A stretch of 43,871 bases of DNA, from positions 1 through 43,871 of IMG/VR virus record IMGVR_UViG_3300042402_007223; one strand, given 5' to 3'. The notes under the pieces are model-generated. The model was not told where the DNA came from. It did not search any database and was given only the letters and a program-made list of their open reading frames with translations. Positions 9,568-43,871 of this stretch are shown in pieces. Position numbers and translations under genes: made by a program. Position 1 is the stretch's first letter. The number at the start of each line of letters is the position of its first letter. This DNA comes from a virus.

Positions 9568-11559
9568 ATGTCAAAAAGAGACACACGAACACCAGTCCTA
9601 GATAATTTCGGAAAGGACCTTACCCAACTTGCGCTTGAAGGAAGAATGGATCCAGTAATTGGCCGTCTTGCTGAAGTTAAAAGATGCAGTCAAATCTTAT
9701 CTAGACGTAAAAAGAATAATCCGATTCTAATTGGAGAACCTGGAGTTGGTAAAACTGCAATTGTTGAAGGCATTGCCAAAATGATTATTGATAAAACTTG
9801 CCCAAGGGTTCTATTTGACAAGAAAATTATTGCACTTGAAATTAGTAGCCTTGTTGCTGGAACTAAATATAGAGGGCAGTTTGAAGAGCGAATGGAGGCT
9901 ATTATTAATGAAGTAAGCGCCAATCCAAATATTATCCTATTCATTGATGAAATTCATACTATGGTTGGAGCAGGTTCAGCCAGCGGATCGCTAGATGCTG
10001 CTAATATCCTAAAGCCGGCATTGGCTCGTGGAGAAATTCAATGTATTGGAGCCACTACAATTGATGAATACAGAGAGTCTATTGAAAAGGATGGCGCGCT
10101 TAATCGACGTTTTCAACAAGTAGTAGTTGAACAGTCTACTCCAGAGCAAACTCGCCAAATTCTTGAAAATATTAAAGAATACTATGAGAGTCACCACTCA
10201 GTTACTTACAGCGCATCTGCATTGGACTCATGTGTAAAATTAGCAGATCGATACTTAACTGAAAGATTTTTTCCAGATAAAGCAATTGACTTATTGGATG
10301 AAGCTGGCGCTAATGTCCATATCGATGGAATAGTTGTTCCTCAAAAAATTAGAGAGCTTGAAGAAGAGCTTGGTGAAATTTCAAAAAATAAAAGAAGTGC
10401 AGTCGAATCACAAAAATACGAAGCTGCTGCTAAATTAAGAGATGCTGAGCGTGATCAATTAGTTAAAATTGATGAAGCTAAAGTTGAGTGGGAAAAAACT
10501 CTAAAAGACAATCGACTTGAAGTAGATGACCGTAAAATCGCTGAGGTTGTTGCCGAAATGACTGGAATTCCAGTAGCAAAGCTAACGCAAACCGATCTTG
10601 AAAAAATTGCAGCATTAGAATCAGATTTGAGTAAGCGAGTTATTGGCCAGGCTGAAGCAATTAAAAAATTATCTAGAGCTATTAAGAGAAGTCGTGCAAA
10701 TATTGCTTCTCGTAAAAAACCAATTGGAACTTTTATGTTTTTAGGTCCAACTGGAGTTGGAAAAACCGAATTGGCTAAAGCCTTAGCAAAAGAAATGTTT
10801 GATTCTGAAGAAAATATTATCAGAGTTGATATGAATGAATATGGAGAAAAATTTACAGCTTCTAAAATGATGGGAGCGCCTCCAGGCTATGTGGGATACG
10901 AAGAAGGCGGTCAATTGACTGAAAAGGTTCGTAGAAAACCATATTCAGTAGTTTTATTAGACGAAATTGAAAAAGCTCATCCAGATATCTTTAATAATTT
11001 GCTCCAAATCTTAGATGAGGGTTATGCAGTTGATGGAAGAGGCCGAAAAATTAATTTTAGGAATACTGTTGTCATTATGACGTCCAATGTTGGAGTAAAA
11101 GACATGCAAGATCGCGGAGTTGGTATTGGATTTGCAACTGCCAATAATATTGAAAAGGAAAAGGCACTAGCTAAGAGTATTTTAGATAAAGCTCTCAAAA
11201 ATAAGTTCCAACCTGAATTCTTGAATAGAGTAGATGATATTATTATTTTTGATTCACTAGAAAAGGCCGAAATTGGTCAAATTTTAGAAATTGAACTTAA
11301 AGATTTGCTTGCACGATCACTAGAAAATGGTTACACCTTTGAATTAGATCAACTTGCTAAAGATTTTATTATTGAACACGGCTATGATGAGAAATATGGA
11401 GCACGTCCAATTAAGCGAATGGTTCAAAATCACGTTGAGGACCTTCTAGCTGAACTTTGGATTGATTCTAAGCTAAAAGATAATGGTCATGTCAATATTA
11501 CTATCTCAGAAGACGGTAATGGACTAAAAGAGTCAAGTATAGAGGACCGATCTAGATAA
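9568..11559 (+). CDS. ClpC-like AAA+ protein unfoldase lacking the N-terminal Clp repeat domain
   Basis: A 663-residue double-AAA+ ATPase of the Clp/Hsp100 family. The D1 module begins at once (Walker A GEPGVGKT at 56-63, Walker B LFIDEIHT near 126). A UVR-type insert follows (QKYEAAAKLRDAERDQL, 282-298), then D2 (Walker A GPTGVGKT at 393-400, LLDEIEKAHPDIFNNLLQ, and sensor arginine region YGARPIKRM). The UVR insert marks ClpC rather than ClpB, which has a long middle coiled coil. The tripeptide Ile520-Gly-Phe522 in GVGIGFAT is at the ClpP-docking loop, so it could feed host ClpP. The usual ~150-residue Clp_N domain, which binds adaptors and substrates, is missing, as in no standard host ClpC. 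It may redirect host proteolysis or remodel virion proteins. Starts with ATG, no Shine-Dalgarno site. Confidence 0.92.
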   Translation: MSKRDTRTPVLDNFGKDLTQLALEGRMDPVIGRLAEVKRCSQILSRRKKNNPILIGEPGVGKTAIVEGIAKMIIDKTCPRVLFDKKIIALEISSLVAGTKYRGQFEERMEAIINEVSANPNIILFIDEIHTMVGAGSASGSLDAANILKPALARGEIQCIGATTIDEYRESIEKDGALNRRFQQVVVEQSTPEQTRQILENIKEYYESHHSVTYSASALDSCVKLADRYLTERFFPDKAIDLLDEAGANVHIDGIVVPQKIRELEEELGEISKNKRSAVESQKYEAAAKLRDAERDQLVKIDEAKVEWEKTLKDNRLEVDDRKIAEVVAEMTGIPVAKLTQTDLEKIAALESDLSKRVIGQAEAIKKLSRAIKRSRANIASRKKPIGTFMFLGPTGVGKTELAKALAKEMFDSEENIIRVDMNEYGEKFTASKMMGAPPGYVGYEEGGQLTEKVRRKPYSVVLLDEIEKAHPDIFNNLLQILDEGYAVDGRGRKINFRNTVVIMTSNVGVKDMQDRGVGIGFATANNIEKEKALAKSILDKALKNKFQPEFLNRVDDIIIFDSLEKAEIGQILEIELKDLLARSLENGYTFELDQLAKDFIIEHGYDEKYGARPIKRMVQNHVEDLLAELWIDSKLKDNGHVNITISEDGNGLKESSIEDRSR

Positions 11560-11583: not shown

Positions 11584-12816
11584 ATGGGAAAATTTTCTAA
11601 TAAAGACCTACCTTCTTTCTTAAAGAAGCCGAACTACTACTCAGAAGATGAGCAGTTTGATGGAGAAACTGGCAGAAATCCAGAAGTAACAGAAGACTGT
11701 GAAACTTGTGGTCAAGAACCTCGGATTGCTGAAAATAAAGTATTAAGATTTGCAGATTTCTTAACTGAAAAGAAGAAATACAATCCTAAATACGATAAAG
11801 ATGGCGATGGAGATAATGACTTTGAAGATTACAAAGCATTTAAAACTGACGCTATCAAAAAGAAAAAGACTGTTGCTATCAAAGAAGGTGTAATGTCTGA
11901 AATTGATATTTTAGCAAAAGAATCTAAAACTTTTAAGAGTTTTGTTAGAGCATTTAAAAAGGAATACAGTAACCTAAATGCTGGTGATAATAAAGAGCTA
12001 GAATCTTGGTTAAAATCTGTATATGATTCAGCTAAGTCACGCACAAATGAATCATGGGATCCTAGAGATGCATACGAATATGGTGCAACTTCAAACTGTT
12101 GCGGCGCATCAGTTATGATGGGTGATATTTGTTCAGACTGTGGCGAACACTGTGAAGCTGAATATTGGGATGAAGAAGGAGATGGAGAAAATCCAGAAGA
12201 ATTTGGTTCGTCTAAATCATATAATGAAGGTCATACTTGCCATGATGGTAGCAAATCGATGCTATCCGAAGCTGCACACTACTTAATTGAATCTATGTGC
12301 GAGTCTACTTGTTCAGAAGCCGCAATGTATGAAAGTGATGAAGATCCTGAACATAAATTTGAAGGTTATTTAGAGTCTGCTTGTTCATATATGGAAAGCC
12401 GTATGTATGAAATAGTAGATGATGGTATGACTATTAATGAATATGCAAATAATGAATCTGCTTGTTACGAATCTACTTGCGAATCAATCGATACAGTTTG
12501 TGAAAAACTTTGTAGCGAAGCGTTAGAACTCCATAATGATGATTCTGATATATCTTACAATGATTATGTTAAAGAGGCAATTGGATGTTATAGAAATGGT
12601 TTAATGGAATGTGCAATGAGTGAGTCTGACCATATGGATGTAAATGAGTCTGAAGAATCAGCAGATGCAATTTATTCAAAGGTTGCACAATGGATCGCTG
12701 ATACTAATAATCAAGAACGCGCATTATCAATGTCAAAGGAGCAACAGGCTGCTGAAATTAAAGTAACTCCACAGCAGTATGAAGAGGCAATTAAACAAAT
12801 TAAGAAAGAAATATAA
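11584..12816 (+). CDS. Cys-rich, EF-hand-containing putative internal head protein
   Basis: A 410-residue acidic protein with several parts. Residues 51-65 (NKVLRFADFLTEKKK) resemble a T4 capsid-targeting/gp21 cleavage signal, with predicted cleavage after Glu62. Residues 71-82 (DKDGDGDNDFED) match a Ca-binding EF-hand or dockerin-type loop. Residues ~172-192 have a zinc-ribbon pattern (SNCCGAS...CSDCGEHC). The rest is a Cys/Ser/Glu-rich acidic region with many CESxC repeats, then a helical C-terminus. It is preceded by a late promoter and followed by a terminator, so it is a late transcription unit by itself. It may be packaged in the head and injected. No enzyme motif seen. Confidence 0.65.
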   Translation: MGKFSNKDLPSFLKKPNYYSEDEQFDGETGRNPEVTEDCETCGQEPRIAENKVLRFADFLTEKKKYNPKYDKDGDGDNDFEDYKAFKTDAIKKKKTVAIKEGVMSEIDILAKESKTFKSFVRAFKKEYSNLNAGDNKELESWLKSVYDSAKSRTNESWDPRDAYEYGATSNCCGASVMMGDICSDCGEHCEAEYWDEEGDGENPEEFGSSKSYNEGHTCHDGSKSMLSEAAHYLIESMCESTCSEAAMYESDEDPEHKFEGYLESACSYMESRMYEIVDDGMTINEYANNESACYESTCESIDTVCEKLCSEALELHNDDSDISYNDYVKEAIGCYRNGLMECAMSESDHMDVNESEESADAIYSKVAQWIADTNNQERALSMSKEQQAAEIKVTPQQYEEAIKQIKKEI

Positions 12817-12953: not shown

Positions 12954-14297
12954 GTGCAAAGAGTAAACGAAATGGCATTTTCTAGAGATAACTCAATTAT
13001 CATATTTGATTTAGATGACACGCTAGTTGTCACTAATGCAAAGATCCTAGTTAAGGATGCACTTACTGGTGAGACCTTTGATCTTACTCCACAGGAGTTT
13101 AATGAATACGAAAAGGAACCACATCACGAAGTAGACTATAATCAATTCAATGATGCTAATATCTTAAAGGCTGGTCGATTGGTAGAATGGGTACTTAACA
13201 TATTGCGTTCTGCATATGAATCTGGAACAGCTGTCGGAATTATTACAGCTAGAGATAATAAGAAACTAGTCAGAGAATTTCTATTATCCCATGGGATCGA
13301 TATTCACCCAAAATTAATCTATGCAGTTAGCGATCCAGAATTTGGATTCGAAGGAACCATTGCTGAAAAGAAAAAAGAGGCTTTCCGAAAGTTAATTACT
13401 AAAGGGTTTAGACACTTTACTTTTTATGATGATGACCGTAAAAATTTGGAACTTGCAAAAAGTCTAGAAGACGAATTTGAAGAAATTACAATGAAGACCA
13501 GAAAAATTGGTCGTACTCAAGTTCCAAAATTAGATATTAGAACAGTTGGTATTTTTAGTGGTAAATTTAAACCACCTCATACTGGTCACTATGAAGCAAT
13601 TGCAAAAATTGCTGAAGAAAATGACGAGGTTCATGTTTTTATTTCAAAAACTGAAATGGCTGGTATTACTGGAAAGGCTGCACAAGATGTATTAGATTAT
13701 TATCTTGAAGACTTTGACAATGTTGAACTTCACCTGGCAGAGGTTACTCCAGTTAGAAGTGGTTATGAATTTGTTGAATCACTTGGTAAAACTCAATACG
13801 CACCAAATACAGTCGTTAATCTCTATGCAACTGATAAAGATATGCCTCGCTGGGCCGCTATGGAAAAGTGGAAAGGCAGTATCTCTAAAATTAACCGAAT
13901 TGAAACAGCTCGTCCTGAATTTGGAGGAAACTCTGGCGCAGAAGGAGATGAAGATGGTGTATCTGGAACCTTAATGAGAGAGTTTTGGTTAGCACAAGAT
14001 TTTGATAAGTTTTCACAGGGGATCCCTGAAGGAAAGGATCCCAAAAAGGTTTGGATGATATTAGGCGGAAAGATTGAAGAGGACCTGCTAACCCCAGAAT
14101 TACTCAGAGACCGCAAGAAAAGTAATCCAGATATGGATGATTTACCACCAGAGCGAGCTCCACAAAGAGTTGGCGGAACTATACGAGTACCTGCACAATG
14201 GGGCATGTATAAAGGCGGAAGACAGGAACTTGGAGCAAATCCAGGATCTGGGACAAGCCGTATAAAAACTTTTTCGGACTATATTTCCGATAAATAA
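12954..14297 (+). CDS. HAD phosphatase fused to NMN-adenylyltransferase-like nucleotidyltransferase
   Basis: A 447-residue two-domain protein. Residues ~12-180 are a HAD domain: FDLDDTLVVT (Asp19, Asp21), IITARDNKK and FYDDDRKN. Residues ~190-400 are an HxGH-type nucleotidylyltransferase: GIFSGKFKPPHTGH (His209, His212) and SGTLMR (337-342), as in NadD/NadM/NadR enzymes that make NAD or other dinucleotides. The C-terminus is basic, ending IKTFSDYISDK, which recalls the head-targeting motif in this phage. GTG 12954 is chosen because its distance from the late motif matches other late genes here; ATG 12972 is the alternative. NMNAT domains are known in T4-like phages such as KVP40 for NAD salvage. 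The HAD-NMNAT order is unusual. Substrates are not proven. Confidence 0.8.
   Translation: MQRVNEMAFSRDNSIIIFDLDDTLVVTNAKILVKDALTGETFDLTPQEFNEYEKEPHHEVDYNQFNDANILKAGRLVEWVLNILRSAYESGTAVGIITARDNKKLVREFLLSHGIDIHPKLIYAVSDPEFGFEGTIAEKKKEAFRKLITKGFRHFTFYDDDRKNLELAKSLEDEFEEITMKTRKIGRTQVPKLDIRTVGIFSGKFKPPHTGHYEAIAKIAEENDEVHVFISKTEMAGITGKAAQDVLDYYLEDFDNVELHLAEVTPVRSGYEFVESLGKTQYAPNTVVNLYATDKDMPRWAAMEKWKGSISKINRIETARPEFGGNSGAEGDEDGVSGTLMREFWLAQDFDKFSQGIPEGKDPKKVWMILGGKIEEDLLTPELLRDRKKSNPDMDDLPPERAPQRVGGTIRVPAQWGMYKGGRQELGANPGSGTSRIKTFSDYISDK
14289..14297 (+). promoter_or_regulatory. T4-type late promoter (GATAAATAA)
   Basis: GATAAATAAC, 19 bases before ATG 14317. It overlaps the stop codon of the HAD-nucleotidyltransferase fusion gene, like the motifs at 11555 and 26592. 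Confidence 0.5.
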
Positions 14298-14316: not shown

Positions 14317-14544
14317 ATGGTTAAGTCATTTCAAAACTATTTTGGACTAAACGAAGATGCTGCTGCAGATTTAGTTGCGTTAAATCAACAAGAAGCTGCT
14401 GCAATGCAAAAAGTGTTAGACGCACAAAAGGAACTTGATGCAATTAAATTAAAAATTGCTGATGTTACTAAAGCCAAAACAGAAGAAGATAAAAAGAAAG
14501 CTGAAGCCGCTAAGCTTGCTGCAGCTCAGGCGCCCACTGCCTAA
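14317..14544 (+). CDS. small Ala/Lys-rich helical protein with possible head-targeting start
   Basis: A 75-residue protein. It begins MVKSFQNYFGLNEDAA, similar in pattern to T4 internal-protein targeting sequences (MKTYQEFIAEA) with a possible cleavage after Glu13. The rest is one long charged helix of Ala, Lys, Gln and Glu (QQEAAAMQKVLDAQKEL, TEEDKKKAEAAKLAAAQ). A late promoter precedes it and another overlaps its stop, so it is a late gene. It could be a prohead core or injected protein; the evidence is pattern only. Confidence 0.6.
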   Translation: MVKSFQNYFGLNEDAAADLVALNQQEAAAMQKVLDAQKELDAIKLKIADVTKAKTEEDKKKAEAAKLAAAQAPTA

Positions 14545-15742: not shown

Positions 15743-17452
15743 TTATAGAGCGCCTGGTGCGCCTAATTCGGTTGCAGTTTCTTTTCCGGCTGCAGCTTCA
15801 GCGCCAGCTCCTCCTTCTGGAGCAGATCCAGCTTCAGGTGCTGCACCTGGTGCTGCGGCTTCGCCGGCCTCACCCTCTCCGGTTGGAGTTTGGTTCATAT
15901 AATCTTTATTCTTTTGAAGATCTTCATCGCTCATTCTTAAATACTCTTTAACTAAGTATTCAGTAGAGAAGTATGGCTTACCTTCATCATCAACAACTCC
16001 TTTAAGAGCGTTAAGAGTAGCAAGACGTTTATTAAGTAAATCTTGTTGCTTGATTTCTTCAAATACGTTATCATCATGCCAGTTAATACCTACTGCATTT
16101 TTAAAACGGTAATCGTCTTTTAGGTCTTTAAAATCAAGACACATTTGAAGATATAGCGGTTTAGTCAATAATTCTTTAAAGGCTGAACGAAGACGTGTTA
16201 TAAACTTATTATAACGAATTTCTTCACGACGAATACCTTCAGCATTCATTGTATATTGGCCTGCACCATTTGCCGAATCCCATCTTGAATAAGGAATCTT
16301 GGAGTCCATCTTTAACTTTTCTTTGAAATAGTTAAGAAGTTCAGAACCTGACATATTTGGACCAGCATATTCCAATGGAGCAATTTCAATTGCCTGATTT
16401 TGGTCATTTACTGGTAAAATATAATTCTTATAGAATAATAGGTTAGGGCGACCATCTACTTGGATTTCTCCAGTATTAGTATCAAAGAAAATATCCTCCT
16501 TTAATTGATTTGCAAATTCACGAACATCTTCCTTTGCTTTATTTAAAGACTTACTTCCAATTGGAACTTTAGTTGTTAAACGAATAGGAGCATTCATAGT
16601 ATGCCAAATAACTTTAGAGTGTTCAATAACACGCATTAAGTTAAATGATCTAACCATTCTTTCAACGAATGAAATACGTTTTGTTCTAAAGTGATTTGAA
16701 TACGATAAGTAAAGAACTTGAGAATCTGTAAGAGTTCTTACTTTAGATTCTCCTGCAACTTTCTGAGCCCATTCTAAAAAGATCTTTCCTGCTGCATCCT
16801 TTTTAATTTGTGGATATAGAGTAGATGGATCAATTTCTTTAAATCCAATAATTTCTCTTGGGTTTTGTAAGTCATCATAAAGAATTTCAAATGCTAAATG
16901 ACCTTCAATCAACCACTGATAAAAATATTGCCATGCTGAAATTCCTTCATTAAAGCCCCATGCATTGTAGATTCTTTCAAAATTTTCGTTATATTTTTCA
17001 ATAACTTTTTCTTGATATTTAAGACGCTGCTCTTTATTTTTTCCTTTATAGAGCATTTCACCAACCAAGTCATTTGGATATGCAAAACGGTTATCTTCAT
17101 CAAATACAATAACGTCATCGGTAATTGATTCGATTACAAATTCAATTTCACCGTTTGATGCAAGATCTCTTAATCTTTCTCGTTTGGTTGCGTAATCTAA
17201 TTGAAAGAATGCAATAGCTTTAGTTCTAAGAGCAGATGTAGTATCTGATATTGCCATAGTTGCTCTGGCTAAGGAGTCTTGCTGGCCACCAGCTAAAACA
17301 TTTCCCCTTGCCTGCATTAACTGACTTTCAATAAATCCTATCGATTGTGAGTTCTTAATTAAAAGATCCTCGTACTTCATACCAACTCGGCTTAAATCTG
17401 ATAGTCTTGATTTAAGTCCTCCTAAGCCGATATTGTCTAGAAATCCTGCCAT
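15743..17452 (-). CDS. 20: portal vertex protein (gp20-like)
   Basis: Forms the dodecameric ring at the head vertex through which DNA is packaged and ejected. The 569-residue length is near T4 gp20 (524). Typical portal features include the helical N-terminus, the crown/wing region YAWGFNEGISAWQYFYQWLIEGHLAFEILYDD-like segment around residues 160-195, IDPSTLYP, and SYSNHFRTKRISFVERMVRSFNLMRVIEHSKVIWHTMNAP-type stem helices. KIPYSRWDS and YNKFITRLRSAF follow in the clip/stem. The last ~55 residues are a low-complexity Ala/Gly/Glu/Pro tail (EAGEAAAPGAAPEAGSAPEGG), absent from T4 gp20 and possibly internal to the head. Last gene of the leftward unit; ends before a bidirectional terminator. Confidence 0.85.
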   Translation of the reverse strand: MAGFLDNIGLGGLKSRLSDLSRVGMKYEDLLIKNSQSIGFIESQLMQARGNVLAGGQQDSLARATMAISDTTSALRTKAIAFFQLDYATKRERLRDLASNGEIEFVIESITDDVIVFDEDNRFAYPNDLVGEMLYKGKNKEQRLKYQEKVIEKYNENFERIYNAWGFNEGISAWQYFYQWLIEGHLAFEILYDDLQNPREIIGFKEIDPSTLYPQIKKDAAGKIFLEWAQKVAGESKVRTLTDSQVLYLSYSNHFRTKRISFVERMVRSFNLMRVIEHSKVIWHTMNAPIRLTTKVPIGSKSLNKAKEDVREFANQLKEDIFFDTNTGEIQVDGRPNLLFYKNYILPVNDQNQAIEIAPLEYAGPNMSGSELLNYFKEKLKMDSKIPYSRWDSANGAGQYTMNAEGIRREEIRYNKFITRLRSAFKELLTKPLYLQMCLDFKDLKDDYRFKNAVGINWHDDNVFEEIKQQDLLNKRLATLNALKGVVDDEGKPYFSTEYLVKEYLRMSDEDLQKNKDYMNQTPTGEGEAGEAAAPGAAPEAGSAPEGGAGAEAAAGKETATELGAPGAL

Positions 17453-22136: not shown

Positions 22137-22919
22137 ATGAAGCATATTAAACTATTTGAAAATTTTAGCAGAGAGTACCTAAAGACAAATAATAATTCTT
22201 TAGCAGCTTTTTATGCAGATAAGCTTGGAGACTTTTGGTTAGAAAAGGATTTACTTGAAAAACTTGAAAAGTTTGAATCAAGAGTGGACTCATTATTTTC
22301 AGATAGTTGGAATCTAAATAGAGGCCGTGGCCACTACAATGGAGACTACTTTGCCCTAAATGTAAAGGTTTATAATTACCCAGATGAAGACGAAGTTCAG
22401 GCAAAGATTGGTATTGAACTTGATGAGGAACGACTTTCTGATATTTGGTATAGATGGTTGCAAGATCAAGCCGAAATGTTTCAAGAAGATATTGAACAGT
22501 CTTACGATTGGGTTGGTCATGTTGGTTGGGGTGGAAATAGTGGCGGATGGCTACACCTTTCGCCAGACAACGACGCAGATAGATTATTAGAATACGCTGA
22601 AGAAACCATTACTGACTATTTAGATACTAAAGAATATTACGATGAAGAAACTATCGAAGATGTTGCTAAAGCAATTAATAGCCCTGAATGGAAACGTCTA
22701 GCTGAACTTGGTTTAGTTGAAGATGAAGATTCAGTAAAGGATATTACTGATAAGCTAACAGAAGCAATTAAATGGTTTAAGGCTGAATATGCGAAGTTAG
22801 ATCAAATTGAAGAAGATCTTAAGTCAATCCAGCGTCAACACAGAGAATTTGAGCAAAATGCAAAGAAATATTTTCTAGAGTTTTTAGAAGAAGAGATTGC
22901 AGACGGCCACTTAGGTTAA
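22137..22919 (+). CDS. hypothetical protein
   Basis: A 260-residue acidic protein. It begins MKHIKLFENFSREYL, a short basic/aromatic head like other proteins in this phage. The middle has an aromatic Gly/Trp-rich stretch (YDWVGHVGWGGNSGGWLHLSP) and the last ~110 residues are charged coiled coil (LDQIEEDLKSIQRQHREFEQNAKKYFLEFLEEE). Its stop codon interleaves with that of the convergent UvsW gene (4-base overlap TTAA). Function not recognised. Confidence 0.65.
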   Translation: MKHIKLFENFSREYLKTNNNSLAAFYADKLGDFWLEKDLLEKLEKFESRVDSLFSDSWNLNRGRGHYNGDYFALNVKVYNYPDEDEVQAKIGIELDEERLSDIWYRWLQDQAEMFQEDIEQSYDWVGHVGWGGNSGGWLHLSPDNDADRLLEYAEETITDYLDTKEYYDEETIEDVAKAINSPEWKRLAELGLVEDEDSVKDITDKLTEAIKWFKAEYAKLDQIEEDLKSIQRQHREFEQNAKKYFLEFLEEEIADGHLG

Positions 22920-26621: not shown

Positions 26622-27122
26622 ATGACAAAACGTATTATTGGAGACTTTAATCAGTTCCTAAACGAAGCAGAAGAATCAGCACCACTTAAAGGATTACCAT
26701 TCCAGGAGCTTATGGATCAATTAGTTAAATTAACTGATCTTACTTCAGATAGCCTAAGTATTGGAACCCCAGCTGATATCTATGGTCACTCAACTTCATA
26801 TAAAACAGACCTTTCTGAAGTTCAAGCTAGACTAGCTGATGTTGACCGTTACTATGCGACAAAAATGAAGCAAGAAGTTCGTTTCTTTTGTTGGAACCTT
26901 AATTGGAAGGATTACTCGTCTGGTAGAGAACTAGAAAAGAAACTTCCTGAAGGAACTATCCAAGCATACCAAAATATTGATTTAGGAAAACTTATCACTT
27001 ATTTTGAAGAGAACCCAGAAGATGCAGGTTTATTAAAAGGAATTAACCTTAGCGTTTCTTCAAAGGCCGGACAGGAATTTGCAAAGGACATGGGCGCTGG
27101 AAAATACGGATCTTTAGACTAA
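26622..27122 (+). CDS. putative head-targeted internal protein
   Basis: A 166-residue protein beginning MTKRIIGDFNQFLNEAEESAP. FNQFLNE|A matches the T4 internal-protein capsid-targeting/gp21 cleavage pattern (MKTYQEFIAE|A), predicting removal of ~15 residues by the prohead protease. The rest is a globular, unrecognised domain (SIGTPADIYGHSTSY; EVRFFCWNLNWKDYSSGRELEKKLP; AGLLKGINLSVSSKAGQEFAKDMG). It has its own late promoter and precedes the large fusion gene by 16 bases. Probably packaged with DNA and injected; function after injection unknown. Confidence 0.6.
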   Translation: MTKRIIGDFNQFLNEAEESAPLKGLPFQELMDQLVKLTDLTSDSLSIGTPADIYGHSTSYKTDLSEVQARLADVDRYYATKMKQEVRFFCWNLNWKDYSSGRELEKKLPEGTIQAYQNIDLGKLITYFEENPEDAGLLKGINLSVSSKAGQEFAKDMGAGKYGSLD

Positions 27123-30075: not shown

Positions 30076-30255
30076 GTGAATTCTTCTCAGAAAAACTATA
30101 AAGATTATATCCAAGGTAAGACCAGATTGGAAAATGCAGTTATGCAGCATCCAAGTGGAAATAATCCAATTATGGATCTTTTACAGAAGGAGACAAATAG
30201 AACATTTTGGATTAAACCGTTCGCCGATTGGAAAAAACAAACTACAAAGAAATGA
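30076..30255 (+). CDS. small basic protein (59 residues, GTG start)
   Basis: A short frame (NSSQKNYKDYIQGKTRLENAV, then NPIMDLLQKETNRTFWIKPF, ending WKKQTTKK). It starts 18 bases after a late-promoter motif and its TGA overlaps the ATG of the Dps-like gene (ATGA), both hallmarks of a real, coupled gene. The spacing from the promoter also matches other late genes. Strongly basic at the C-terminus. No family recognised; it may be a DNA-contacting or head-related protein. Confidence 0.6.
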   Translation: MNSSQKNYKDYIQGKTRLENAVMQHPSGNNPIMDLLQKETNRTFWIKPFADWKKQTTKK

Positions 30256-30671
30256 TTCCATTTGAACTACAAAGTGGACTAGATGAACCTCAAAATGAGG
30301 GTATGGATGTATCTACTTTCATGCTAAGTCTACTGCAAATTAGAGACCAAGCTCATATTTTACATTGGCAAACAACTAACGAGGCCCAGCACAATGCGTT
30401 TGGCGCATTTTATGACGATTTCTTAGGGTTAGTTGATGAAATTGCTGAGCAAGTTATTGGAAAATATGGAAGATTTAAAGTTGGAGGTAGCGCTATTCTT
30501 GTAATGGATTATGAGTCAGCTATGCCAATCTTTATTCAAAATATTGAAAAGGTATTTTGCCAAGATTTTTGTGAAATATTCGAACAAGAATCAAATACTG
30601 AATTGTATAACTTAAGAGACGAATTTTTATCTCTTAAAAATAAATTAGCTTACAGATTAACCCTAGACTAA
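30252..30671 (+). CDS. Dps/ferritin-like helical-bundle protein
   Basis: A 139-residue protein. STFMLSLLQIRDQAHILHWQTTNEAQHNAFGAFYDDFLGLVDEIAEQVIG is the helical pattern of Dps and related ferritin-like proteins: first helix ending in H-x-x-H-W, then a YDD...DEIAE helix whose Asp/Glu residues sit like the ferroxidase or helix-pairing positions. It is shorter than host Dps (~160-170) and the fourth helix is weak, so iron oxidation is not certain. Similar short Dps-like proteins occur in T4-like cyanophages. ATG 30252 is chosen; an in-frame TTG at 30228 would overlap the small upstream gene more. Overlaps the next gene by one base (TAATG). Could protect or compact DNA in head or host. Confidence 0.7.
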   Translation: MIPFELQSGLDEPQNEGMDVSTFMLSLLQIRDQAHILHWQTTNEAQHNAFGAFYDDFLGLVDEIAEQVIGKYGRFKVGGSAILVMDYESAMPIFIQNIEKVFCQDFCEIFEQESNTELYNLRDEFLSLKNKLAYRLTLD

Positions 30672-32284: not shown

Positions 32285-32638
32285 ATGAAAACTATTAAAA
32301 CATTCGAAGCATTTGCTAATGATGATTTTGAACCTAATCAAATTCAACCATTTAACAACGAACCTGAAATTTCTCATAGCGAGGAAGATTCTCACGGAGC
32401 AGAATATGAAAACTATATGTTTTTCGGAAATCTTAAAACAATTAAGCGTCTAGTTGACATTTTATTGGAAATGGATGAGGCTAAAGTTGACTCAATCTTA
32501 TCTAATGGACATGCATGGGCGGCTGACCATATTGCAACATCAAAGGATGACGTTGAAGAGGTTCTTAACTTTTTAATGAATGAAGTAGAAGACTCAAAGG
32601 AGACTGAACTTCTTACTGACATTAGAGAAGAAAATTAA
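32285..32638 (+). CDS. small acidic phage protein
   Basis: A 117-residue protein starting MKTIKTFEAFANDDF, then an acidic linker and a domain YMFFGNLKTIKRLVDILLEMDEAKVDSILSNGHAWAADHIATSKDDVEEVLNFL. That last part (GHAWAADHIATSKDD) is one I associate with widespread, uncharacterised T4-like phage proteins. It shares the K-T-I-K-x-F-E-x-F start with others in this region but lacks a clear cleavage site. No function assigned. Confidence 0.65.
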   Translation: MKTIKTFEAFANDDFEPNQIQPFNNEPEISHSEEDSHGAEYENYMFFGNLKTIKRLVDILLEMDEAKVDSILSNGHAWAADHIATSKDDVEEVLNFLMNEVEDSKETELLTDIREEN

Positions 32639-33438: not shown

Positions 33439-33723
33439 ATGAATAAAGTACTTTCATACTTAGAATTTATTACAGAGGCGAAAAAAACTAAAAATTCGCC
33501 TGATTGGCATGATTCAGATGCTCCTGATGCAAATGGTAAATTTAAAAATCTTGGAATCAAGGCATTAGCTTCATGGTTAATCAAAACCAGAAAGGGTGAT
33601 ATGAGAAAGATCACTGGAAGTCTTAACCAGCAAATAGTTTTTAACCGTAATGATAATCCGTCTTATGCCAAAAAGATGGAAAAGGTTAGAGAAGAGGTAA
33701 AAAGACAACTTAAGAAAAAGTAA
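33439..33723 (+). CDS. small basic head-targeted internal protein
   Basis: A 94-residue basic protein starting MNKVLSYLEFITEAKKTKNSP. YLEFITE|A is the closest match in this window to the T4 internal-protein signal (MKTYQEFIAE|A), with cleavage expected after Glu13. The mature part (GIKALASWLIKTRKGDMRKITGS, then QQIVFNRNDNPSYAKKMEK) is Lys/Arg-rich, as expected of a DNA-associated internal protein. ATG 33439 is chosen; a TTG 15 bases upstream would add residues ahead of the signal and overlap the preceding gene. Likely packaged in the head with the DNA. Confidence 0.7.
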   Translation: MNKVLSYLEFITEAKKTKNSPDWHDSDAPDANGKFKNLGIKALASWLIKTRKGDMRKITGSLNQQIVFNRNDNPSYAKKMEKVREEVKRQLKKK

Positions 33724-33729
33724 TATACT

Positions 33730-34206
33730 ATGTACGTAAAGCCATTTAGCGAATATGTAAGTTTGCTTGAGAAGAAATCAAACTCAGAAAATCCTGCACA
33801 ATATAAAGCTCCAGAAGGAAGCTCTAGAGATAAAAAGTTAGATAAGGCTAAACGTCTATTAGATAGTGGTAAAAAGGAAGCTGCGTATAAACTCAGAGAT
33901 GAGATGGAAGCAGCTGAAAGAAAAAAATCTGGTTGGAAAAATACCCCAAGACCAGATTCAAAGGTAACTGAAGCTAGTAAGAAAAAATCTTCCAATCTTA
34001 GTAAAGAAACTCTAGCTAAGATCAAAGCGGTTGCTGATAAAAAAGGTTATTCGTTTGCCGATTTAAAACGTGAATACACTAAAGGTCTAGGTGCATTCTA
34101 CTCTTCTGGTTCAAGACCAGGAATGACTGCTCATCAATGGGCAATGGCTAGAGTAAATGCGGCAAGTCCAAGTAAATCTTGGGCAGATGTCAAAAAGACT
34201 AAGTAA
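33730..34206 (+). CDS. basic putative internal head protein (DUF5824-like C-terminus)
   Basis: A 158-residue, very basic protein. The start MYVKPFSEYVSLLEKKSN has the F-x-E-Y-x-x-L-L-E|K pattern of the head-targeting motif. The C-terminal ~65 residues (LSKETLAKIKAVADKKGYSF, then LGAFYSSGSRPGMTAHQWAMARVN) resemble a small domain I recall from many T4-like phages (ending G-x-R-P-G-x-T-x-x-Q-W-A-M-A-R-V-N; Pfam name unverified). The middle is Lys/Arg/Ala-rich. It follows the 33439 gene by 6 bases and is followed at once by a small gene. Probably a DNA-binding internal protein. Confidence 0.65.
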   Translation: MYVKPFSEYVSLLEKKSNSENPAQYKAPEGSSRDKKLDKAKRLLDSGKKEAAYKLRDEMEAAERKKSGWKNTPRPDSKVTEASKKKSSNLSKETLAKIKAVADKKGYSFADLKREYTKGLGAFYSSGSRPGMTAHQWAMARVNAASPSKSWADVKKTK

Positions 34207-34475: not shown

Positions 34476-35195
34476 ATGGCATTCGAAATCGGCGATAGAG
34501 TTAAGCTTAGATTATCCAAAGATACAATGGATCGTCTTAATCTTGTTGGAGCACCAATTGATAATAAAATAGTAACTATTGGAAAAGTTTATAAATTGGA
34601 CTATGCGCCAGATCAAACTTTATACATGGTTGATTTAGAAGAACCAATTAAATTTGAAGAAACTACATTTGATGAAATTTATGATCTTAGAGATGCTGAT
34701 CTAGATTTGATTGACGTAAACGAGCCTCTACCAGAAAGTAAAGTATTAAGGTTTTCTTCTTTTTTAAATGAAGCGAAGAACCCTGCTAGCTGGTATTTTG
34801 GAATTGCTGATTGCCATGGTGTAGAATCCTTTAATAAAGAAAATATTGACCATACTTATTTAGACCAATTAGATAGAATTCATGATTTAGGGTTGGCTGA
34901 TGAAACTGCTCCAACTAGAAAAAGCGTAATGAAAGAGTATAATGGTCAACTAAATATGATGATGATGCGTTGTAGATTTAATGAACAACGTCACCCAGTG
35001 GTTTATAGAGTTTTATTAACCGATGACGTTGCCGATTATATTCAATCTTTGGTTGATCAAAGTGATTATATTGGTGCACTAAATGCAATTAAAGATCACT
35101 CAACAGAGATTCAATTAGCCAGAGGTCAAGGAGCCAATCTAGAAAGACGCTGGAAAATGATTCCTAATCCAGATCTTGATCCATTCCACGGATAA
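34476..35195 (+). CDS. two-part protein with internal head-targeting/cleavage motif
   Basis: A 239-residue protein in two halves. Residues ~1-80 look like a small beta-barrel (GDRVKLRLSKDTM, then TIGKVYKLDYAPDQTLYMVDL). Residues 87-101 are ESKVLRFSSFLNEAK, nearly the same as ENKVLRFADFLTEKK in the 11584 gene, and predict gp21 cleavage after Glu99. The C-terminal ~140 residues (ASWYFGIADCHGVESF...) form a separate, unrecognised domain containing His. If cut, the C-terminal domain would be released inside the head. It is followed by a 63-base gap before the baseplate operon. Confidence 0.6.
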   Translation: MAFEIGDRVKLRLSKDTMDRLNLVGAPIDNKIVTIGKVYKLDYAPDQTLYMVDLEEPIKFEETTFDEIYDLRDADLDLIDVNEPLPESKVLRFSSFLNEAKNPASWYFGIADCHGVESFNKENIDHTYLDQLDRIHDLGLADETAPTRKSVMKEYNGQLNMMMMRCRFNEQRHPVVYRVLLTDDVADYIQSLVDQSDYIGALNAIKDHSTEIQLARGQGANLERRWKMIPNPDLDPFHG

Positions 35196-41646: not shown

Positions 41647-42510
41647 GTGAAAGACTATTATAATATACTAGAAGTAGAGCGCGGATGCAGCCAGGACGAT
41701 ATTAAAAAGGCATATCGAAAACTTGCCATTAAATATCACCCTGACAAAAATCCTGATGGCGATTCCAAATTTAAGGAAATCGCTGAGGCTTATGGTGTAT
41801 TAGGAGATGCAGAAAAACGCAAATCATACGATCGCGGCGGGTCGGCTGGATCTACATTTGAAGATCTTCGTGATATGTTTGGTGGATTTACAACTGATGA
41901 TATTTTTACTCAAAACTGGGGTCTTAATCTAGACATTGTTGTTAACCAAACGGTTGAACTTAAAGATTTATTGGTTGGTAAAACAATTGAAGTTGTTTAC
42001 ACTAAACGTGGAGAATCTACCCCAAATAGGTTTAGCGTAGATCTTAACCCAGAAAAAACTAAACATCAATTAATATTTGATGGTAAGCGCGCATTTTCCA
42101 GATTAACTTTCCAGAATATGGGAAATTCTGGTAAACTTGGCGGAGGCTCAATGTTTAATCGTACATTTATTGGAAATCTATATGTTTTACTAGAGATTAT
42201 TGTCCCTAGTGGAATTGATATTGACTCGGCCGGTAATATAGTAGACAACCGAGAAGTAAACTTGGACGAGTTAATTAATATTGAAAACTTAATTTTTACT
42301 TCTGTTTCTGGAACCAACTTTAAAATAAAGTCAATTAACGCTAAATCTTTTAGCGATATTAAGATAACTATTCCAGGAAGAGGTCTGGGTTCGATTAACC
42401 AAAATAAAGGTGCCTATATCTTTAAAATTCACACCAAGATACCTAATTTCGATAAACTAACTGATTCTGAGAAGCTGGATCTAATAAGCCTAATAAATAA
42501 GACTAAATAG
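41647..42510 (+). CDS. DnaJ-like (Hsp40) co-chaperone without zinc-finger domain
   Basis: A 287-residue J-protein. Residues ~1-65 are a J domain: DYYNILEV...[20 protein letters not shown] with the HPD motif at 32-34 and [22 protein letters not shown] short Gly/Phe-rich linker ([22 protein letters not shown]) and a C-terminal substrate-binding region ([17 protein letters not shown]...; [10 protein letters not shown]) follow. The four CxxCxGxG zinc motifs are absent, as in CbpA-type proteins. It should recruit host DnaK. GTG start; a promoter-like TATATT is 7 bases away. Next gene is the prohead protease, so head assembly is a plausible client. Confidence 0.85.
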
Positions 42511-42553: not shown

Positions 42554-42563
42554 TATAAATAAT
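42554..42563 (+). promoter_or_regulatory. T4-type late promoter (TATAAATAAT)
   Basis: Exact TATAAATA extended by AT, 17 bases before GTG 42581; the best late-promoter match on the plus strand. It drives the prohead protease gene. The 70-base gap before it also has the near-repeat TTGTCACTTGTTG. Confidence 0.7.
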
Positions 42564-42580: not shown

Positions 42581-43871
42581 GTGGTCCTTACAGGCGTAAA
42601 CGAAATTACAAAAACCTCAGATATGCTCTTCATTATAGAAAGAGTAAATGAAGGTTTAAACTCAGCAAAACTAGATAATGGTGATATCGTTATGGAAGGT
42701 GTTTGTGCAGTATTTGACACAAAGAATAACAACAACCGTATCTACGAAAAAGCCGAGTATCTTCCTCACCTAGAATACTTAAACGAGAAAATCGAAAGAG
42801 GTCAATTATTTGGTGAGCTAGACCACCCTCAAAATTTTGACGTTTCACTTAAAAACGTTTCTCACGTAGTTGAGAAATTATGGTACGATCAAAATTCTAA
42901 TAACGTAAAAATTAAAGTACGTCTGCTAAATACACCAGCTGGCCAGATTGCAAAAACTCTAGTTGAGTCAGGCTGTACAATTTCAACTTCATCAAGAGCC
43001 GCTGGCCAAGTAATGAATGAAGGTAAAGTAAAAATCCAAAGAATATTCACGTACGATCTAGTAGCTGAACCTGGTTTCAGCGAAGCCGTTCTTAGAAGAT
43101 CAGTTAATGAGAGCTTCCAAAGCAATTACTCTATGCTTTTCGAATCTTTGGAAAATATTAAATCTACGTCAATTGTAAATAAATTGGTTGATATTTCTGA
43201 AAGCTTAAACCTCGAGGAATCAATCAAAGTTTATAAGATAAATAATGAAGAGATAGTACAAACTATGGAAAATAATAACAAACACATGACTAATGAGTTT
43301 GTAACGAAAGAAGCATTCAACCAATACTCTGAACTTGTTAAAGGCAAGTTTGACGCACTTAAAGAGAGTGTAGATAAAATGGTTGATAACTTCGCAGTTA
43401 CCGAAGAAGACCAAGAGGAAGATCCAACTTTGGTTGAAGATCCAAATGCCGAAAAAGAAGAAGCGCCTGCAACTAATGAGCAATTGGTTGAATACGTTAA
43501 CTATCTTTCAAGCGAGCTAAGCAAAGTAATTGAATACAACAATTACCTTTCTGGAATGATGAACAAATCAATTAATTATTCTGAGCATGTTGCTGAGAAA
43601 GTTAATAAAGTAATTGATTATTCTGATTATCTTGCAGAAAAAGTTGAACAAGGTATTGGCTATGCTGAATACGTTGGAGAAAACTTAAATAATGCAATTG
43701 ATTATTCTGAGCATATTGCTGAAAACGTAAACAAAAATATTAAGTACACAGAATACTTAGCAGAAAACCTTGATAAAGGAATTCAATATTCTGAGTATGT
43801 TGCTGAAAAATCAGAACAAGGTATCAGATACACTGAATACGTTGCTGAAAACTTAAAGCACTCTATTGGTT
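42581..43871 (+). CDS. 21: prohead maturation protease (gp21-like) with long repeat tail, 3' end cut off
   Basis: Protease of the herpesvirus/T4 prohead type that cleaves scaffold and capsid proteins during maturation. GTG start (VVLTGVNEITKTSDM). Catalytic His82 is in FGELDHPQNF and nucleophile Ser138 in GCTISTSSRAAG; VRLLNTPAGQIAK and DLVAEPGF flank them, all in the usual order. T4 gp21 has 212 residues. Here a helical region (~180-270), an acidic linker (EEDQEEDPTLVEDPNAEKEE, ~276-295) and then at least nine 14-residue repeats from residue 305 continue to the window edge. The tail may be a fused scaffold (gp22-like), or a self-cleaved prosegment. Reads off the end; the stop is not seen. 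Late promoter upstream. Confidence 0.85.
   Translation, partial: MVLTGVNEITKTSDMLFIIERVNEGLNSAKLDNGDIVMEGVCAVFDTKNNNNRIYEKAEYLPHLEYLNEKIERGQLFGELDHPQNFDVSLKNVSHVVEKLWYDQNSNNVKIKVRLLNTPAGQIAKTLVESGCTISTSSRAAGQVMNEGKVKIQRIFTYDLVAEPGFSEAVLRRSVNESFQSNYSMLFESLENIKSTSIVNKLVDISESLNLEESIKVYKINNEEIVQTMENNNKHMTNEFVTKEAFNQYSELVKGKFDALKESVDKMVDNFAVTEEDQEEDPTLVEDPNAEKEEAPATNEQLVEYVNYLSSELSKVIEYNNYLSGMMNKSINYSEHVAEKVNKVIDYSDYLAEKVEQGIGYAEYVGENLNNAIDYSEHIAENVNKNIKYTEYLAENLDKGIQYSEYVAEKSEQGIRYTEYVAENLKHSIG
43493..43870 (+). repeat. nine 42-base coding repeats (14-residue helical repeats)
   Basis: Exact 42-base periodicity from 43493, each unit encoding a variant of YSEYVAEKVNKxID. Tyr at position 1, Ala at 6, Glu at 7, Asn/Lys at 8 and Ile at 13 recur (first two copies are degraded). 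The array continues beyond the window. Pattern suggests an amphipathic helix or coiled coil. Confidence 0.9.

Follow-up and report, generated by a model that had tools for sequence, protein, structure and literature searches.

The stretch of DNA analysed here (the window) comprises 43,871 bases of a single virus record. On the minus strand it encodes a T4-type portal protein, gp20 (15743..17452; Portal_T4, PF07230, E 9.9e-67), and at its end, on the plus strand, lies a gene for a gp21-type prohead protease (Peptidase_S77, PF03420, E 5.5e-12) that is fused to a scaffold (42623..43870). An earlier sequence-only reading of this DNA had built on a gp21 homologue in the window; the homologue is present, though only as a partial gene (42623-43870) that runs off the window end. 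The window likewise stops short of Gp23, which was found in the relative G001 as the next gene after the protease (E 9e-48). A DnaJ-like gene (41647-42510, +) directly precedes the protease–scaffold gene, and the T4 late-promoter word TATAAATA is located just upstream of the latter at 42554-42561 (+). Elsewhere on the plus strand, the window contains a gene for a Dps-like protein (phrog_858, 30228-30671), immediately before the 30671 gene, and one for a 414-aa low-complexity protein rich in Ala, Glu and His with AEAHASAEA repeats (1523-2767).

A nucleotide search revealed no close relative of the window among public phages. The nearest named relatives are T4-like phages of Bacteroidota, together with unannotated huge phages of 462-735 kb. 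For comparison we used the long relatives G001 (approximately 216 kb, 98% portal identity) and G002 (270 kb, 67%), furthermore G004 (180 kb), G005 (114 kb), LR756504, LR756500 and the first 400 kb of LR756501, as well as the phages T4, PTm1, PAU, Lak-A1 and immuto.

Four genes on the plus strand of the window carry a near-identical short module, which we refer to as the tag. In the 11584 gene (11584..12816), which codes for a cargo candidate of 410 aa with a DxDxD loop and a Cys zinc-ribbon-like part, the tag reads NKVLRFADFLTEKKK and covers codons 51-65 (11734..11778). This gene directly follows a ClpB/C-like ATPase gene (9568-11559, +). The 34476 gene (34476..35195) codes for a KOW-like small protein fused to an N-terminally tagged protein, both of which are separate genes in relatives, and has the tag ESKVLRFSSFLNEAK at residues 87-101 (34734..34778), at the gene-fusion junction. 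The remaining two cargo candidates, one of 94 aa (33439..33723) and one of 166 aa without known family (26622..27122), carry the N-terminal tags MNKVLSYLEFITEAK (33439..33483) and IIGDFNQFLNEAEES (26634..26678) respectively. The module is hence N-terminal in 26622 and 33439, and internal in 11584 and 34476.

The sequence-only reading had claimed this module for at least four otherwise unrelated proteins and had proposed a scan for [YF]xxF[LI]xE[AK]. In a six-frame translation of the window this pattern has exactly four matches, all in coding frames and at the positions claimed (11584, 26622, 33439 and 34476), compared with 0.08 expected and a maximum of two in 300 within-protein residue shuffles. 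With the tags masked, no significant cross-similarity was detected among the four proteins (lowest E 0.55), nor do they have a Pfam or PHROG family in common. Among 13 orthologues of the 11584 protein the tag core F..F[LV].E is invariant while the x positions vary; NKVLRFADFLTEK and NKVLRFTQFVNEK are examples of orthologue tags that keep the core and change these positions.

Weaker versions had been reported for the 14317 and 33730 genes. Both exist and are conserved in orthologues. The N-terminal variant MVKSFQNYFGLNED (14317..14358, +) is conserved in 17 orthologues, with a pN of 0.017 compared with 0.148 in the remainder of the protein. In MYVKPFSEYVSLLEKK (33730..33777, +), likewise N-terminal, the Glu is displaced; the G004 orthologue reads MIKSLVQSFNEYTLNEAK. 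Additionally, two degenerate N-terminal tags were identified on the plus strand, MKHIKLFENFSRE (22137..22175), whose G002 and G004 orthologues possess full tags (HTFSQFILER, FTFSQFILER), and MKTIKTFEAFAND (32285..32323), in which the aromatic pair is retained without the L-x-E. A possible C-terminal tag, RIKTFSDYISDK (14259..14294, +), has Asp in place of Glu and is conserved in G001 and G005. A general class of C-terminal tags was rejected, since there is no overall enrichment, though a few such tags are conserved. A protein with an arm just around and after its predicted propeptide cut has orthologues in G002 and G004 that end in the tag-like VLGFADFIKEQNN.

To extend the analysis to whole genomes, the pattern [YF]xx[FY][ILVM]xE was counted at protein N-termini and compared with shuffles; gene starts came from our own simple caller, so that single tag counts may shift slightly. 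Observed counts clearly exceeded the expected ones in G001 (11 observed, 0.41 expected), G005 (6, 0.15), G002 (13, 0.56), G004 (10, 0.37), LR756504 (22, 2.6), LR756500 (22, 1.8) and the first 400 kb of LR756501 (35, 1.5). T4 has 3 (0.41 expected), PTm1 2 (0.66), PAU 0 (0.52), Lak-A1 2 (1.2) and immuto 1 (0.33). As N-terminal counts in PTm1, Lak-A1 and immuto show no enrichment of this type over shuffles, the tag is not a general feature of T4-like phages of Bacteroidota. In the tagged phages pooled, 110 cores start within the first 10 residues, compared with approximately five per later 10-residue bin. An unbiased gapped-pattern search led to the same core: F.QF and F..F..E rank first in G002 and G004, whereas in G001, LR756504 and LR756500 the top N-terminal patterns include F..F..E or Y..F..E. 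The module takes the form hydrophobic-x-x-[FY]-x-x-[FY]-[ILV]-x-E-[AKSNG] and is usually N-terminal. N-terminal aromatic pairs without a strict L-x-E are also enriched, though only in tagged phages, and variants with a shifted Glu exist; such an enrichment is expected if docking and cutting are separable. The 70 tagged proteins fall into 54 unrelated clusters and, when aligned, have only MKxIKxFxxFxNE in common, which bears out the claim that the carriers share nothing besides the tag. The late-promoter-like word TATAAATA is not enriched before tagged genes and is rare in the relatives (7 copies in approximately 217 kb of G001).

The domains behind the tags are re-used in various combinations. 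The zinc-ribbon-like part of the 11584 protein occurs in G002 as a stand-alone 62-residue protein behind an N-terminal tag (MKNLVNSFTKFVNESWDP...), and the 33439 domain has another tag in G005 (MSSIKTFTAWINEAK) and, in G002 and G004, lies at the C-terminal end of larger tagged proteins. The first 60 residues of the 34476 protein match a small KOW-like gene that stands alone in L277 (E 1e-5) and in G004, and the remainder corresponds to a separate gene with its own starting tag in L276-L282 and G002, for instance MKNNYVKPFGIFNES. Judged by these matches, the internal tag of 34476 lies where two genes, each on its own in relatives, are joined, and cleavage at this site would release the two parts of the fusion. 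A basic tagged protein (pI 10) adjoins the capsid gene in G001 and G002, has a homologue in G005 and resembles the T4 internal proteins. Taken as whole sets, the tagged proteins are basic in LR756500 only, and outside this phage basic charge fails as a cargo marker. Other tagged proteins match PPK2, methyltransferases, MoxR-type AAA, VWA, Nudix, LRR and GluRS(-like) proteins. The 35 N-terminally tagged proteins in the first 400 kb of LR756501 include polyphosphate kinase 2, a methyltransferase, a DeoC-like aldolase and a radical SAM protein. The tag is present on a MoxR-type AAA protein in one phage (L196:4314-5876) and on a DUF2201 VWA/metallopeptidase-like protein in another (L244:321-1793).

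In T4, residues 4 and 7 of the capsid-targeting sequence (CTS) control targeting and residues 8 and 10 control processing, and the specificity of gp21 is [ILV]-x-E (PMC9026906). In the tag, exactly these positions are taken by its two aromatics (4 and 7) and its [IL]xE (8 and 10). T4 gp23 itself is cut inside FGSFLTE↓A, and the capsid protein of the present phage group retains [IL]NE↓[AS]. All counted tags have F/Y at 0 and +3 because the search pattern requires it, but the profile scores the T4 CTS independently. A profile built from G002 and G004 N-terminal tags only and run blind on T4 returned 61.1, ipII and ipIII as three of the four top matches; ipII and ipIII are annotated as 'internal virion protein'. 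The same profile gave no match below E 1 in PTm1 and PAU. T4 gene 61.1 (NC_000866 18966-19130), which scores beside ipII and ipIII, encodes the 54-aa hypothetical protein gp61.1 with the CTS-like start MKTFKEFIKED. The module thus combines aromatics at 4 and 7, an [L/I]-x-E after the second aromatic, unrelated carriers and a gp21-type protease. It is also N-terminal in the pooled relatives, yet two of the four window examples are internal, one of them at a fusion junction. By its sequence, the motif is a T4-type CTS, and the proposal of a T4-type targeting and cleavage signal made in the sequence-only reading is supported by the match at the key CTS positions, by the recovery of ipII and ipIII, by the otherwise unrelated carriers and by the T4-type portal, gp23 capsid protein and gp21 protease.

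It might be argued that the motif is a gp21-type cleavage site only, without a targeting role, in proteins that enter the head otherwise and need processing. This would fit the [ILV]-x-E specificity of gp21 (PMC9026906), and both the capsid protein and the scaffold also have [ILV]-x-E. Furthermore, tag and scaffold repeat (see below) are alike in little besides the core. However, the [IL]NE↓[AS] sites in the capsid proteins of the group lack the aromatic pair. In the tags, this pair equals the Glu in conservation and is enriched also where the L-x-E is absent or shifted, and the aromatics of the T4 counterpart have been shown to drive targeting (PMC9026906). We therefore consider a role in cleavage alone rather unlikely.

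The scaffold part of the protease–scaffold fusion (43478..43870, +) carries tandem 14-residue repeats, NKxIxYSEYLAENL, with the core Y..Y[LIV].E. Nine complete units are present in the window and about eleven in full-length relatives; NKNIKYTEYLAENL and DKGIQYTEYVAEKS are examples. Units in LR756504, LR756502 and LR756501 read LDKNIAYSEYIAEN, close to the YQEFIAEA of the T4 CTS. Tag and repeat have in common an aromatic residue (0), an acidic residue or Gln (+2), an aromatic (+3), [ILV] (+4), Glu (+6) and a small polar residue (+7), and differ in the position of the upstream hydrophobic residue (−3 in the tag, −2 in the repeat) and at +5 (Asn compared with Ala). By chance, the core would be expected in approximately 0.4-1% of random 14-mer units. 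A repeat with the tag core is absent from T4 gp22 and from the scaffolds of PTm1, Lak and PAU, and LR756500 has only two clean scaffold repeats, yet 22 tags. When the scaffold-repeat profile alone was used as a tag finder, nothing but the tag next to the capsid gene and an internal module of G001 rose above noise, and most tags are not significant in this profile. A structure prediction for the full scaffold reached a pLDDT of 39, too poor for use; the repeats were drawn as helix. Docking of tags to the repeats is likely from the shared core, and imitation of the repeats by the tags is plausible, a weaker step than the rest of our reading because the flanks differ and T4 gp22 is without the repeat. 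The earlier reading had noted neither the core-bearing scaffold repeat nor the tag at the fusion junction nor the size of the tagged set in relatives.

Alternatively, the module could be a docking peptide for another phage or host complex, such as an assembly site, a membrane, a chaperone or the degradation machinery, unrelated to the head. Several tagged proteins resemble metabolic or regulatory enzymes, chaperone-like genes are present in the window (ClpB/C-like 9568, DnaJ 41647), and the missing enrichment of TATAAATA means that expression timing lends no support to a link with the head. On the other hand, the T4 internal head proteins were recovered by the blind profile, the same core stands in tandem in the scaffold, and a basic tagged protein lies beside the capsid gene, so that a destination other than the head appears improbable. 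Chance, or a generic amphipathic N-terminal helix, hardly comes into consideration: the pattern is indeed short, and its residues are common in helices, but counts are 8- to 40-fold over shuffles, sharply N-terminal and confined to some phage lineages, the core positions stay constant in a tag that otherwise varies, and equal counts were seen neither in shuffles nor in PTm1, PAU, Lak or immuto.

Most probably, then, cargo docks by its tags in the core of the scaffold, and the protease subsequently cuts these tags; packaging, cleavage and injection are what we infer from these sequences. The two tag aromatics would anchor cargo in the scaffold core as it grows, probably by fitting in between the repeats of the scaffold or by mimicking them, and the shell would close around this core. 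The fused gp21-type protease would then cut after the motif Glu in the cargo tags and in the scaffold repeats, and these cuts would dissolve the core and free the cargo. Finally, DNA would enter, and the freed proteins would be ejected with the DNA at infection. Against this reading stands the resemblance of some tagged proteins to ordinary enzymes (PPK2, methyltransferase, GluRS-like). If such enzyme-like proteins are packaged, we predict that they are delivered at infection. Literature searches yielded no virion proteomics or cleavage data for phages of this group, and no usable virion proteomics for PTm1, immuto and PAU relatives.

More tentatively, it is possible that huge T4-like phages possess a general cargo-loading code. 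In such a code, each genome would place a transplantable peptide, equal to one scaffold-repeat unit, on tens of unrelated proteins and enzymes and would also use it as a splitting site in fusions, the virions would inject a large, readable set of pre-made proteins, and tag and scaffold would evolve together into lineage dialects (FxxFLNE, YxxFLNE, LYEA). With the tag, the gene list of an anonymous phage can be turned, from sequence alone, into a predicted set of head-packaged and probably injected proteins, also for uncultivated phages as large as 735 kb. The tandem copies of the tag core in the scaffold suggest a molecular basis for CTS recognition, which seems unsettled for T4 in the literature searched, and in the laboratory a new tag–scaffold pair might help to fill phage heads with proteins of choice. 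As a principle, the CTS is already known from T4; the scale reached here, the use of tags at fusion junctions, the dialects and a scaffold repeat with the same core appear to be undescribed in the literature searched, in which subscription journals were thinly covered.

The closest known system is the CTS of T4 ipII and ipIII (MKTYQEFIAEA, removed by gp21). It has the same aromatics at 4 and 7 and an [IL]xE before the cut, is N-terminal, is carried by unrelated proteins and goes along with a gp21 (S77) protease in the genome. By pattern there are three carriers in T4, whereas the relatives studied here have 10-35 or more (G005: 6), including enzyme-like proteins. Unlike in T4, internal copies occur here at a gene-fusion junction, the consensus is FxQFhNE or YxxFLNE, and cleavage and packaging are predicted. 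Like T4 gp21 and gp22, the present phages have an S77 protease and a scaffold adjoining gp23 with multiple predicted [ILV]xE cuts, but here protease and scaffold form one polypeptide with exact 14-residue repeats containing the tag core. Protease–scaffold fusions are annotated in PTm1 and XacN1, and the PTm1 fusion has different repeats. In the giant Salmonella phage SPN3US, ejection and internal head proteins are cut by the phage's own prohead protease (PMC5694885, PMC7411985). Many packaged, protease-processed and ejected proteins in a large head would be a feature of the present group as well, SPN3US being of another lineage. Finally, approximately 10 unrelated neighbouring genes of PAU (101450-122097, L124) have only an N-terminal MKT[LI]xxLYEA(KLNEA) in common, and two of their products are annotated as 'internal capsid protein'. 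The PAU motif is LYE rather than F..F[LI].E, and its protease and scaffold genes are separate; the LYEA module looks like another dialect of the same principle.
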